Shown in pieces: positions 8,440-23,600 of a DNA stretch of 39,402 nt (position 1 is its first letter; each line of letters starts with the position of its first letter). The DNA comes from Flavihumibacter sp. CACIAM 22H1 (GTDB lineage: Bacteria; Bacteroidota; Bacteroidia; Chitinophagales; Chitinophagaceae): the NCBI RefSeq assembly GCF_001601815.1, contig NZ_LUKG01000030.1, forward strand, positions 1-39,402, given 5' to 3'. A model generated the notes under the pieces. It searched no databases. It worked only from the letters and a program-made list of their open reading frames with translations, and was not told the DNA's origin. Both the position numbers and the translations under genes were made by a program.

Positions 8440-8459
8440 TAGTTAAGTTTTGAGACGGG

Positions 8460-8488
8460 CAAAGATAAGGGAAAAATCAGCTATTCAA
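8460..8488 (-). promoter_or_regulatory. Promoter of the pdhA operon
   Basis: On the minus strand TTG (8488-8486), 18 bases, then TATCTTTG (8467-8460) match the Bacteroidota primary-sigma consensus. The leader to the pdhA GTG would be about 18 bases. The element lies within the sequence just before recF, so the two divergent genes share this short region. Confidence 0.6.
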
Positions 8489-8518
8489 GCAGTTAAAGAG
8501 TGTAATATTGCATTCATC

Positions 8519-9604
8519 TTGCTACAGCTGGCCTCCATATCGCTTTATCAGTTTAAAAATTATTTGAATGCCAGCTGGCAATTCGATCAGCAGATCGTGG
8601 CCATCAGTGGTCGAAATGGGATCGGTAAAACCAATTTGCTGGATGCCATCTATTTTCTCTGTTTCACCAAAAGCTATTTCCACCGCTCGGATGCAAACCT
8701 GGTTTTACAGGGTGCCCAGGGGCTTCGGGTGGCAGGCCTGTTCCATAAAGCCGGCCAGTCGGTGGAAGTAACCGGTATTATCCGGGAAACCGGAAAAAAA
8801 AGCTTTACGATCAATGGGCAGGCCTGTGAACGCTTATCCGATCATATCGGGCAATACCCAGCGGTTATAATTGCGCCCGATGATGTGCAGATAATTCTTG
8901 GCGGAAGCGAGGAACGCAGGCGTTTCCTAGATGCCCTGCTTTCACAGATCGATCATGACTACCTGCTTCAGTTAATGACCTATAACCGCGTTCTGCAGCA
9001 ACGTAACAGCCTGCTCAAACAGCAGTTGGAAACAGGGCGCCGGGACCTGGAATTATTGGATATCCTGGACCGGCAATTATTGGCGCCGGCTGCGTATGTA
9101 TATGAAAAACGAAACGAGTACTGCCAGGTACTCTTAGCACAGGCAGTGGACCGGTATGCCCATATAGCAGGTACCCGGTATGATCTTGAACTTAAGTACG
9201 ATAGTGCCCTGCATTCCGGCGGAATGGCCGACCTGTTGCATGCACATCGGAACCGGGATCTGGCCAGCGGCCGTACCCAGGCAGGCATTCACAGGGATGA
9301 TATCCAGCTATTGCTATCTGGCCAGGCATTCCGCCAGATAGCTTCACAGGGGCAACGTAAAAGCCTCTTGTTTTCATTGAAACTGGCAGAGTTCAATTTA
9401 CTGAAAGAAAAGAAAGGGTTTGCACCCCTCCTACTGCTCGACGATGTTTTTGAAAAACTGGATGCCGACCGCATGCATAACCTGCTTTATGAAGTCTGTC
9501 ATGCTAATGACGGACAAGTATTTGTGACCGACACGCACTCAGACCGGTTAAAAGAAAGCTTTGAACGACTCGGGAAGGGATACCAGGAACTGAAACAGGC
9601 ATAA
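8519..9604 (+). CDS. recF: DNA replication and repair protein RecF
   Basis: RecF is an SMC-like ATPase that loads RecA at gaps with RecO and RecR. Seen are Walker A GRNGIGKTN, the region SQGQRKSLLFSLKLAE (signature side) and Walker B LLLLDDVFEKLD, followed by D-loop-like residues. There is no ATG before the conserved SISLYQFKNY. The TTG at 8519 gives 361 residues, the usual family length; a TTG at 8450 would add 23 residues that do not look like RecF. The gene is divergent from pdhA. The terminator of the downstream antisense-oriented ncRNA overlaps its stop codon. A dciA-like gene follows on the same strand, a neighbourhood also known from Actinobacteria. Confidence 0.95.
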   Translation: MLQLASISLYQFKNYLNASWQFDQQIVAISGRNGIGKTNLLDAIYFLCFTKSYFHRSDANLVLQGAQGLRVAGLFHKAGQSVEVTGIIRETGKKSFTINGQACERLSDHIGQYPAVIIAPDDVQIILGGSEERRRFLDALLSQIDHDYLLQLMTYNRVLQQRNSLLKQQLETGRRDLELLDILDRQLLAPAAYVYEKRNEYCQVLLAQAVDRYAHIAGTRYDLELKYDSALHSGGMADLLHAHRNRDLASGRTQAGIHRDDIQLLLSGQAFRQIASQGQRKSLLFSLKLAEFNLLKEKKGFAPLLLLDDVFEKLDADRMHNLLYEVCHANDGQVFVTDTHSDRLKESFERLGKGYQELKQA

Positions 9605-9632
9605 AAAAACCAGCTCTTAGAGATAGCTGGTT
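9603..9632 (-). terminator. Intrinsic terminator of the minus-strand ncRNA
   Basis: A perfect 8-bp stem AACCAGCT/AGCTGGTT (9608-9615 with 9625-9632) has a 9-base loop and, on the minus strand only, is followed by seven T. On the plus strand no T-run follows, so it does not serve recF. It marks the 3' end of a minus-strand transcript for which no coding gene exists. Confidence 0.7.
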
Positions 9633-9835
9633 GGCGGAAAAGGGGGGCCACACCGCACCAAACGCTCAGTTCCACTCCCCCTCTCTACCAAACCTTCTGC
9701 TATTAACCAGAAATATCTTTTCAGAGATATCGTGGTATGGGTAGTCTACGGATCAAGGCATACATTCAGTTTTCAAAAAGACACATTTCAACCGTAGGAG
9801 ATGGATATAAAAACGGGACCAATAACCATACAAAG
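9603..9835 (-). ncRNA. Candidate structured non-coding RNA between recF and dciA
   Basis: This 346-base gap without a gene carries a complete minus-strand transcription unit: a consensus promoter at 9868-9839 and an intrinsic terminator at 9632-9603, giving an RNA of about 233 bases. It holds no plausible reading frame. Hand folding finds a hairpin ATATCT-CTGAAA-AGATAT enclosed by ACCA/TGGT and CTACC/GGTAG. A second arm is closed by CTACGG/CCGTAG, and a probable long-range stem pairs TCCATCTCC with GGGAGTGGA, which together give a multi-branch fold. I find no SRP, RNase P or tmRNA signature. A Bacteroidota 6S-type RNA is possible, but I cannot prove it. The start is inferred from the promoter. 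Confidence 0.6.
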
Positions 9836-9838
9836 ATG

Positions 9839-9868
9839 CAAAGCTAAATCCATTAGTTGCATGAACAA
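9839..9868 (-). promoter_or_regulatory. Consensus promoter of the ncRNA
   Basis: On the minus strand TTG (9868-9866), 19 bases, then TAGCTTTG (9846-9839) is an exact match to TTG-N19-TAnnTTTG. It is the best-matching promoter I see in the window and faces away from the dciA-like gene. Confidence 0.65.
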
Positions 9869-9938
9869 CCAGTTTATTGTGTATTTTTTACATGTTTATC
9901 CGATTTAGGTACCTGCTTTTCCGAATCGGCTATCTGCC

Positions 9939-9946
9939 TATCTTTG
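9939..9946 (+). promoter_or_regulatory. -7 box for the dciA-like gene, probably leaderless
   Basis: TATCTTTG matches TAnnTTTG exactly and is only 4 bases (CTGC) before the ATG at 9951. Transcription would then start at or within a base of the A of the start codon. The -33 position reads TTT instead of TTG at 19 bases spacing. Confidence 0.45.
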
Positions 9947-9950
9947 CTGC

Positions 9951-10232
9951 ATGGGCGAATATTCATTAGGAGACGCTATTCAGCAATTCCTGCAGAAAAG
10001 CAGGTTAAAAGGTTCAGTGCAGGCCCTTCAGATAACCGATGTATGGGAAACCATTATGGGAAAAACGGTGGCCCGTTACACGGAAAGCATCAAAATTTAT
10101 GGCGACAAATTATACATCACTACATCCATAGCGCCGTTAAAACAGGAGCTGCTGTTCCAGAAAGAACATATTATTGCCAGGGTCAATGAGGCATTGGGAG
10201 AAAAAATAATCAAAGACGTAGTAGTGCAGTAA
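9951..10232 (+). CDS. dciA: DUF721 protein, DciA-like helicase loader candidate
   Basis: The 93-residue protein matches the DUF721 pattern: LGDAIQQFLQKSRL, the central VWETIMGKTVARYT, and KIYGDKLYITTSIAPLKQELLFQKEHII. This family includes DciA, the replicative helicase operator or loader used by bacteria that lack DnaC/DnaI. Many short Bacteroidota versions consist of the DUF721 core only, as here. It follows recF, as in Actinobacteria where the DUF721 gene sits beside recF in the replication cluster. Function is inferred from family and position; direct helicase work in this phylum is unknown to me. Confidence 0.85.
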   Translation: MGEYSLGDAIQQFLQKSRLKGSVQALQITDVWETIMGKTVARYTESIKIYGDKLYITTSIAPLKQELLFQKEHIIARVNEALGEKIIKDVVVQ

Positions 10233-20623: not shown

Positions 20624-23600
20624 CCGTAACGCCTTTTTTTGTTGGCCGGTTCTTAGTTTAAGAATATAAACACCGGCCGGACGTCCTTTGGTGATGGAAG
20701 CAAGACTTACCCAATGCTGACCAGGGCCTACCGTAATGCTGGATTGCGACAATTGTTTACCAGACATATCCACTAATTCCAGCTCCAGTTTGGCACCATC
20801 CAGGCGGGTAAGCTGCAGCTTTAACTGGTCGCCCCTGCCTGGATTAGGATAGACAACCGCCTGCAGGCTGGCATCAAACTGCACCACCCTAATAACAGAA
20901 TAGCGAACGCCTCCCCGGTTGTCCACCAGCTTAAGGCGGTAAAAATAGGTTCCAGGAACTTCTATTGAATTATCCAGGAAGCTTGCCGACAAGGCGCTGG
21001 ATTCACTGATGGCATTACTGAAGATGGGCAAAAAGCCGGCATCCCGGTTATTTGAGCGTTCCAACTCCAGTTTAACAACACCCTGCCAGTCGGTAACCGA
21101 CCAGCTTAACCTTGCAGCCGGTTCGTTCCCCGAGCGCAGCGCCGAAAACTGAACCGGGGCGTTGCGGGTATTTCTACCCAGGTAAAATTCTCCGTACAAA
21201 GCGGTTGAAAGCTCTACATAGTAACCATTGTCATAAGGGACCAGCTCAAACCCTGCCGGATCCCAAATGGTTTCATAACCAGGTACATTATCGGAGATCT
21301 GCTGGTTAAGGGTGCTTACCGGGCCGGCATACCTGAAAACGGAAAGGTCGTAGGCACTTAATTTTTGCGTACAGGTATCACAGGGGTTGGCATCCAACCA
21401 GGCCTGAACGGTTTCATCCGGAATATAGAAACGGAACCGGGCACTGGTATCGGCATAGGCATCGGCCCCCTGGAGCACCCAATTGAAGGGCAATACCTTG
21501 TTACCGGAAAAATCGGCCATACCTTCTATTGGTGCATACGTAAACTGTACGGAATGGGTTCCTTCCTGGCCGCTCTTAAGTTCCGCCATTAGTTGTCCAT
21601 CTGCCAATACCTGCGAAAATGAATCTTTATATACCGAACTGTTTTTTGTTTGTTTTTTAGTGCCATTAAATAAAGGATAATTCCTGCTATATACATGAAA
21701 ATCATCTAGTAAGAGTCCTCCTGGTGTTCTTGGCATTATAGTAGCTGCATCATTTCTTCCGAGAGACATTAAGCGAAATTGAATGCTCGATGCGCCGGCA
21801 GGCAATGCGGAGGAAATCACCCGCCACCGATCATACCCCGGCAGGCCGCAACCAATCCAGGCGGTCTGTTCGGCATTTGTATACCAGTTAACCTGCGGGG
21901 CAACTGTTTTCAAGGGCAGCCACACCTTTCCCGTATCAAGGGAATATTCCATGAACACAGAATCCCTGTTATCGCACAATTGTTTATTAACAGATGCAGA
22001 AAAATAGGGTTGGGCAAGACCGCGCAGGTCAAAAAGCGGGCTCAGCAAATAGCCGGAAGGAATTATAAAACCAATACCCTGTATGGAGGAGATCCATTGG
22101 GTTCCCCAGAAAAATTTTCCATTGGCCGGTTTATACGGCGCAATAGAGGCACCGAGTTGAGAGGAATGTTCATATAAGAACGTGGAACCCCATCCGGCCT
22201 TACCCGATTCAAACCCTTCCAGGTAGGGAAAGCGCTCGATTTTCCTGGCGTACGCCAGATTGACCGACAGGCTGTCATCCGCCCGGTAAGGATCACCCTC
22301 GGCAGCTACCCAGGCTTTTACCCGGGCAAGTGCAGCAGGCCAGTTGTTTACAGGGAGTCTGAAATTAACGATGGCAGTATCGCCCCCCGCAATACTGGGA
22401 AATTCAACCTGTTGTATAATTTGATCAGGCGACTGAAGGGAAAACAATACAGGTTTACTGGCAGATTGTTTATTGTTGGCGGCGTATAAACTAATTCCGA
22501 TGGTATCGCCGTCGGTTACACGTTCCTTTTGATAGGTAAGATATACTAAACGGATATCCTCCTCCGCTTTAAAAAACTGAATTTTCCTAAATACGTGTAA
22601 TAGTTGCTGATAACTCGAATGTACCACCCGTAATCGCACCTGAAAACTGGCGCTGAATTCCTGGTGCCCCTTCTTCAATACATTACTGATATTCAGGAAA
22701 TCGATTTGCGGTTGCTGCGTAAGTGGATCGGACAAAGCTATCCCTAACCAGGAAGACGTATCATTTCCCCGGATAAAACAATCCACTTTTGCTAAAGGGA
22801 AATCGGGTATATCAATCGACATACCGATATTATCGTCAACGTTATAGTTCGCAAAGTTATAATTACCAATTAGTTGAACTGATTGATCTTCTATTTTACT
22901 ATTAATAAAAAAGCCTTTTGAGGTTTTTGTCTGTAATTCAAGGGCCGCTGTATTCAAAAGCAGATCCCAGGCAGGTAGTCCTACTAATGCTGAATATCCC
23001 GGATTTCTATAAATAGTGTCTTTTATTTCGTTTAAATTTTCGGTGAAGGGAAGCGTTAAAGGACTTGTACCAACGTAACGCCAATTTATGGCGGAGCTAT
23101 TATTTGTAGGATTAGGGTCCGTGAGTGTTGAAATTTTAAGTTCAAATCTTGCCGTTTCGCCCAAATTACCTACTGGTCTCAGCTTTGTGGTCCAGGTAAC
23201 TGTTTGTCCGCCTGGAAAATTTCTCACCAGGGTGTCGGCTGCAATAGGAAGGCCATTTTTTAAGAGAACCAGGAAAACGGTGTCAGTAATAATAGAACTG
23301 CCTTCATTTCGTAGTTGCACAGTGAAGGGTAGCAAGCTATCCCTGGCTGAGGGGCTACGACTTACAAGTAAAGAATCAGTAACCTGAATGGAAAGATCGT
23401 TGTTCATACCCGGAACCGGGCAGATCACAGGTCGGGTAAGAATTCTTTTGGCGATCGCCGGCAACCCTAGCTTACCCTGCAGGATGGGGCGGATACTTAC
23501 CCAATAGGGTTTTCCCGGTTTTAACTGTTGAATCTGGTAAACGGTATCTGAACTGTATTGGATCGTTTCCATTTCTGTTCCATTATATAAAAGAACTGCA

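Follow-up and report, generated by a model that had tools for sequence, protein, structure and literature searches.

The gap between recF and dciA in Flavihumibacter probably holds an intergenic small RNA gene, whose product is a candidate regulator. Its conservation points, with somewhat better than even confidence, to a previously undescribed minus-strand gene, found almost only in this genus, in which an 18-base element, B, would be the working part; one locus in another genus of the family (G189) appears to carry a similar form. The window is the whole 39,402-nucleotide stretch that was analyzed, contig NZ_LUKG01000030.1 of Flavihumibacter sp. CACIAM 22H1. The gap was compared in all 15 Flavihumibacter genomes (G000-G014), the window's genome being G000. 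A RecF tree groups the six genomes G000, G003, G004, G005, G008 and G014 as a single clade (support 100/100), called the window's clade below. The nearest named loci by DciA are mostly from Flavihumibacter.

Conserved elements of the recF-dciA gap

The following features of the window are used throughout.

8450-9604, plus strand: recF, RecF/SMC domain by Pfam
9605-9950: recF-dciA gap, 346 bases
9951-10232, plus strand: dciA, DciA by Pfam
9939..9946, plus strand: -7 box of dciA, TATCTTTG, four bases 5' of the ATG and divergent from the RNA promoter
9856..9869, minus strand: element A, GTTGTTCATGCAAC, palindrome GTTG-N6-CAAC, includes the -33 TTG of the promoter match
9839..9846, minus strand: -7 box TAGCTTTG (TTG-N19), offset A+23, at that offset in the window's genome only, of 15
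9831..9838, minus strand: -7 box CATCTTTG, offset A+31, in 6/6 genomes of the window's clade
9603..9830, minus strand: predicted transcript, 5' end placed from the -7 boxes to within ~10 bases
9803..9820, minus strand: element B, GGTCCCGTTTTTATATCC, 18 bases, near the predicted RNA 5' end
9739..9753, minus strand: element C, ATCCGTAGACTACCC, an interrupted form of ATCCGTACCC
9695..9712, minus strand: hairpin E, TTCTG-GTTAATAG-CAGAA, in 6/6 genomes of the window's clade and 5/5 second loci
9629..9694, minus strand: hairpin D, long helix with variable loop, in 6/6 genomes of the window's clade
9603..9632, minus strand: intrinsic terminator AACCAGCT-N9-AGCTGGTT-T7, adjoins the recF stop codon, this form in the window's genome only

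A sequence-only reading of the window had proposed an orphan transcription unit without a gene in this gap, and no credible ORF is indeed found in its 346 bases (9605-9950). B was also considered as coding sequence and rejected, as start codons and frames were not preserved when the 15 gaps were inspected by eye. Because the TATCTTTG box sits four bases 5' of the ATG, the dciA mRNA is probably nearly leaderless.

The consensus described for Bacteroides fragilis is TAnnTTTG at -7 and TTTG near -33; work on Flavobacterium bore out the -7 part but not the -33 part (PMC7366714). The minus strand of the window carries a Bacteroidetes-type promoter match, TTG-N19-TAGCTTTG, which the sequence-only reading had called perfect. 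The match is present; in the other five members of the clade TAGCTTTG is not retained, whereas the neighboring CATCTTTG is. The window has four copies of TTG-N17..21-TAnnTTTG, all of them on the minus strand, and 20 shuffles average 1.25 per strand. Since the match alone is thus near chance, the weight rests on conservation. Palindrome A (GTTGTTGNTGCAAC) lies upstream of B in 13/15 gaps with at most three mismatches; it is only partial in G002 and G010, where its start was placed by hand. With at most one mismatch, TAnnTTTG stands at A+21 in G001, G002, G007, G009, G011 and G013 and at A+31 in the six genomes of the window's clade, which gives 12/15 genomes a -7 box at one or the other of these fixed offsets. 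None occurs within one mismatch at either offset in G006, G010 or G012, and 52/4846 gap positions match equally well. A together with a -7 box at two fixed offsets across the genus makes a conserved minus-strand promoter likely, though the position of the box differs between genomes. A is found at three exact places outside the locus in the 15 genomes; the copy elsewhere in G012 lies inside a long reading frame and was taken as chance (~0.5 expected in 15 genomes, control 0).

B is present in the gaps of 15/15 genomes with at most three mismatches and is exact in 10/15, while shuffles of the window yield 0.06 matches of this quality per 39 kb. The distance from the start of A to that of B is 49 in 9/15 genomes, 48 in one, 77-86 in four and 279 in G006. 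C is exact (ATCCGTACCC) in 10/15 gaps, takes variant forms in G000 and G007, and is lacking from the gaps of G002, G010 and G014. In support of the dciA -7 box, AAAGATA occurs on the minus strand in 14/15 gaps. A second B match in the window, with three mismatches, lies at 21421-21438 within a large reading frame on that strand.

To the spread of B beyond the genus, a sample of 294 family genomes was applied, 288 of them outside Flavihumibacter. The one-mismatch pattern was found in 1/288 (G137), in terminator-like sequence after another gene. A search model, R1, finds 15/15 genus gaps by construction and gives weak matches elsewhere in the genus (E 0.007-0.045); under stricter filters it finds 2/288 genomes outside, G286 and G189. 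The match in G286 is coding and was taken as chance. That in G189 has E 8.8e-4 for one genome, equivalent to ~0.26 over the 294 searched, and therefore rests on layout rather than score: the locus (L213, 165-370) has two tandem copies of B, a long strong hairpin and terminator-like ATCCCTTATTTAAGGGATTTTTTTTT, followed 3' by a LuxR-type response regulator and then a frame with a weak PAS match below cut-off. The G189 contig starts just before the two-B unit.

Within the 15 genomes the B core GTCCCGTTTTTA occurs 10 times outside the locus and its reversed control 45 times, and B as a dispersed genomic element was rejected on that ground. No exact B was found in viral contigs. A further unit in G007 (L085, G007:C34) consists of A, B, C, a second B and a terminator-like hairpin; it lies between a long reading frame and a frame beginning like a secreted protein. 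At G013:C1:1442069 (L084), A has 14 bases of B, inverted, immediately after it, in the opposite relative orientation, and this arrangement too sits 5' of a frame beginning like a secreted protein.

Structure and end of the predicted RNA

The sequence-only reading had folded the RNA into at least three arms. As a whole, the 266 nt are no stabler than their shuffles (z -0.92, 35/200 as good), and the predicted RNAs of G009, G002 and G010 give z 0.13, -0.92 and -0.79. One hairpin, D (9694-9629), does stand out, with z -3.35 in the window and between -3.35 and -6.89 across the six clade genomes on the minus strand (mononucleotide shuffles, strands folded freely), and no equally stable stretch is found elsewhere in the same gaps. 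D has lower energy on the minus strand in 6/6 genomes, with 16 G-U pairs versus 2 on the plus strand; the z-score is better on the plus strand in 3/6 (G005, G004 and G008). Covariation between relatives, proposed earlier as a check, gives a divided answer for D: 4 of its 16 consensus pairs are changed on both sides, but 7 are broken in at least one genome, and the RNAalifold covariation term over the six genomes is +0.28, which does not favor D.

Hairpin E, immediately 5' of D, has a conserved loop. It pairs in 8/8 distinct forms from both loci, with one pair changed on both sides, and pairing falls to 83% or less when the partners are slid; 120/500 shuffles reach it, so this control is not passed. 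Neither D nor E was seen in the other 9/15 genomes of the genus. The region downstream of B is rebuilt between sub-clades, with low-complexity inserts. The five clade members besides the window's genome have inserts resembling AGAAGTAGGAAGT that separate B from hairpin E (L014-L018); the window has none.

B was also examined as a seed for base pairing. Only in 5/15 genomes is it less paired than the RNA's average, and a consistently accessible seed was rejected. Taken over 24 bases, B pairs no better than shuffles with dciA, recF or 13 further genes of the window (lowest z -1.78); for dciA z is 1.18 in the window and between -0.79 and 1.50 in 11 relatives. Because B is open in so few genomes and pairs with none of these genes above shuffles, it is not simply readable as a seed.

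The 3' end is less uniform than the promoter. A hairpin with a T run, described earlier as a perfect terminator, is present at 9632-9603, and plausible minus-strand terminators were found by a looser scan downstream of B in only 5/15 genomes (G000, G004, G002, G009 and G010). The stock scan, with a loop limit of 8, did not call the 9632-9603 hairpin; a related scan gives 12 candidates on both strands of the whole window. In G004 the candidate lies within the gap. G002, G009 and G010, one branch of the RecF tree, share AAGCCT-NTCC-AGGCTT and a T run 25-32 bases inside recF, antisense to it. Candidates 63 or more bases inside recF (G003, G005, G008 and G012) and a short one 35 bases inside it (G011) were left out of the count, and no plausible terminator was found in 10/15 genomes.

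A second copy in a sensor-kinase leader

A search that started from a weak second match of B led to a second locus in five genomes of the window's clade (G000, G003, G004, G008 and G014).

G000:C19:60564-60868 (L174, L171): kinase leader; likewise L167, L168, L170 and L173
L214 86-2332: kinase gene

The locus begins with the same -7 box, TGCATCTTTG (CACCTTTG in G000). Next come, in order, a variant of B, hairpin E, whose loop reads GUUAGUAG or close to it, and a large hairpin carrying U runs. This last hairpin is terminator-like, has one pair changed on both sides, and stops ~25 bases short of an ATG; the gene that starts there encodes, in G004, a protein with PAS, HisKA and HATPase_c domains. 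In G003 the kinase gene has a divergent LuxR-type response regulator as its neighbor. The kinase translation of G000 shows stops further down. A model of the kinase-leader hairpins, R2, found 2/147 sampled family genomes, both of the window's clade. The leader, with its module of promoter, B and hairpin E and its terminator-like hairpin, is a candidate attenuator in the window's clade only.

Recurrence of the module behind a promoter in one orientation favors a function as RNA or leader, with which the inverted piece of B next to A in G013 does not agree. The place between two replication genes, which had seemed notable in the sequence-only reading, looks incidental, because the same module also precedes a sensor kinase and B shows no pairing with dciA or recF mRNA above shuffles.

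Known RNAs, alternative explanations and a possible role

Rfam gave no match in the window at gathering score and none in 9550-9960 up to E 10; the five second-locus sequences had no match up to E 5. In the loci of 11 relatives the only match, to a lncRNA family, was taken as chance (E 0.045, half its gathering score). The proposal of an undescribed RNA family is supported by the lack of an Rfam match together with a promoter geometry and 5' element kept in the genus and a hairpin kept in the clade. Among the papers listed in a search of the open-access literature with few terms, there was no description of the recF-dciA RNA and no study of small RNAs in Chitinophagaceae. Attenuators are terminator-containing 5' leaders. 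What likens the second locus to them is its large terminator-like hairpin, which has T runs and stops ~25 bases short of the kinase ATG; at recF-dciA, by contrast, no gene directly follows on the same strand. Decoy RNAs of the CsrB/RsmZ type titrate proteins. The likeness to these is in working only, a short motif common to a free RNA and an mRNA leader; the gap RNA differs in having one or two motif copies and no known binding protein, and membership is not claimed. According to PMC7366714, Bacteroides thetaiotaomicron has intergenic sRNAs which, like the window's unit, have a TAnnTTTG-type promoter and an intrinsic terminator; those were mapped experimentally by dRNA-seq, while the gap RNA is predicted, and the likeness is one of layout.

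The sequence-only reading had suggested a 6S-type RNA of the phylum. 6S RNA folds as a rod with a central bubble and paired 5' and 3' ends, binds RNA polymerase and templates pRNA. That the gap RNA is a 6S RNA diverged beyond the 6S-Flavo model is highly improbable. The 20 genomes searched have no 6S-Flavo match, which would leave room for one, but only weakly as 0/14 control genomes matched either. The Rfam comparison with 6S-Flavo that had been proposed as a check gave no match to the gap up to E 10, no end-to-end rod with a central bubble was predicted in any of four genomes (whole-RNA z -0.92 to 0.13), and the rebuilding of the region after B between clades, with its inserts, also speaks against it. 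The gap RNA is like 6S-Flavo (RF01685; PMC2864571) in phylum and in being an orphan intergenic unit, and unlike it in lacking a model match and a rod fold. A chromosomal site such as dif or a replication origin deserves as little credence. The gap adjoins replication genes and lies ~12-13 kb from a dif candidate, GTCTTATAATTTATATTATGTTAAAT (L117 9435-9455; L136 9111-9131), in two one-contig genomes, G012 and G006. That very candidate refutes the gap as dif: it is elsewhere, at G012:1489435, within ~100 bases of the cumulative GC-skew maximum, with an equal one at G006:1184111; the G006 skew is noisier, and its maximum in the stretch analyzed is ~143 kb away. Such sites are marked by a XerCD site or by DnaA boxes at a skew switch, and the gaps show neither arrangement. 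An origin is unlikely, as the gaps have no TTATCCACA and only a single degenerate DnaA-box match in G004 and another in G011, and the wide skew pattern places the locus near the terminus.

More weight belongs to the explanation that A, B and C are transcription-factor sites controlling dciA or a divergent promoter, with no functional RNA. We consider this unlikely, though a serious contender, and about a quarter of our confidence goes to B acting at the DNA level, by itself or in addition. A is palindromic, and the two copies of B at three loci (G001, the second unit of G007, and G189) are likewise compatible with a binding site on DNA. Across the 15 gaps the minus strand holds 16 copies of TCCGTA and the plus strand none, where shuffles average 1.1 and reach at most 5. 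Genes for LuxR-type response regulators are neighbors of B at two further loci, a G013 site away from the gap joins A to a partial, inverted B, and the spacing of A and B is 49 in 9/15 genomes although the -7 box is at +21 or +31. On the other hand, a -7 box belonging to dciA itself stands four bases ahead of the ATG and, in the window, ~70 bases away from A; the three exact places of A outside the locus and the scarcity of the B core relative to its reversed control are unlike a regulon; and hairpins D and E count against it. A functionless transcript, divergent or antisense to the recF 3' end and only ending or interfering with recF transcription, is rather improbable. It would agree with the 10/15 genomes that lack a plausible terminator before or just inside recF and with the terminators inside recF in G002, G009 and G010, yet it would not conserve B, the second locus precedes a sensor kinase rather than lying beside recF, and the window RNA is predicted to end at the recF stop.

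Under the preferred explanation, a small RNA gene, the unit would be transcribed from the minus strand and act through B as RNA. As a guess, one trans-acting factor might recognize B, with E in the window's clade, and act on the kinase leader as well; the free RNA would then compete with that leader for the factor, while the hairpins and terminator would mainly protect and end the RNA. Because the module in the kinase leader has the same sense, a shared binding partner seems more natural than base pairing of the two RNAs. Even granted that the RNA exists, the decoy step is doubtful. The fullest form of the idea, which we put forward as a long shot, is a genus-specific circuit in which termination in the kinase leader depends on an RNA-binding factor and the free RNA titrates that factor, both RNAs carrying promoter, B and hairpin E. 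In it B would be the factor's recognition motif, the motif also doubled before a LuxR-type regulator gene in another genus. The conservation record in 15 genomes, an exact motif and a second copy in a kinase leader give a defined starting place. If true, the circuit would mean RNA-based control tied to a two-component system in Chitinophagaceae.
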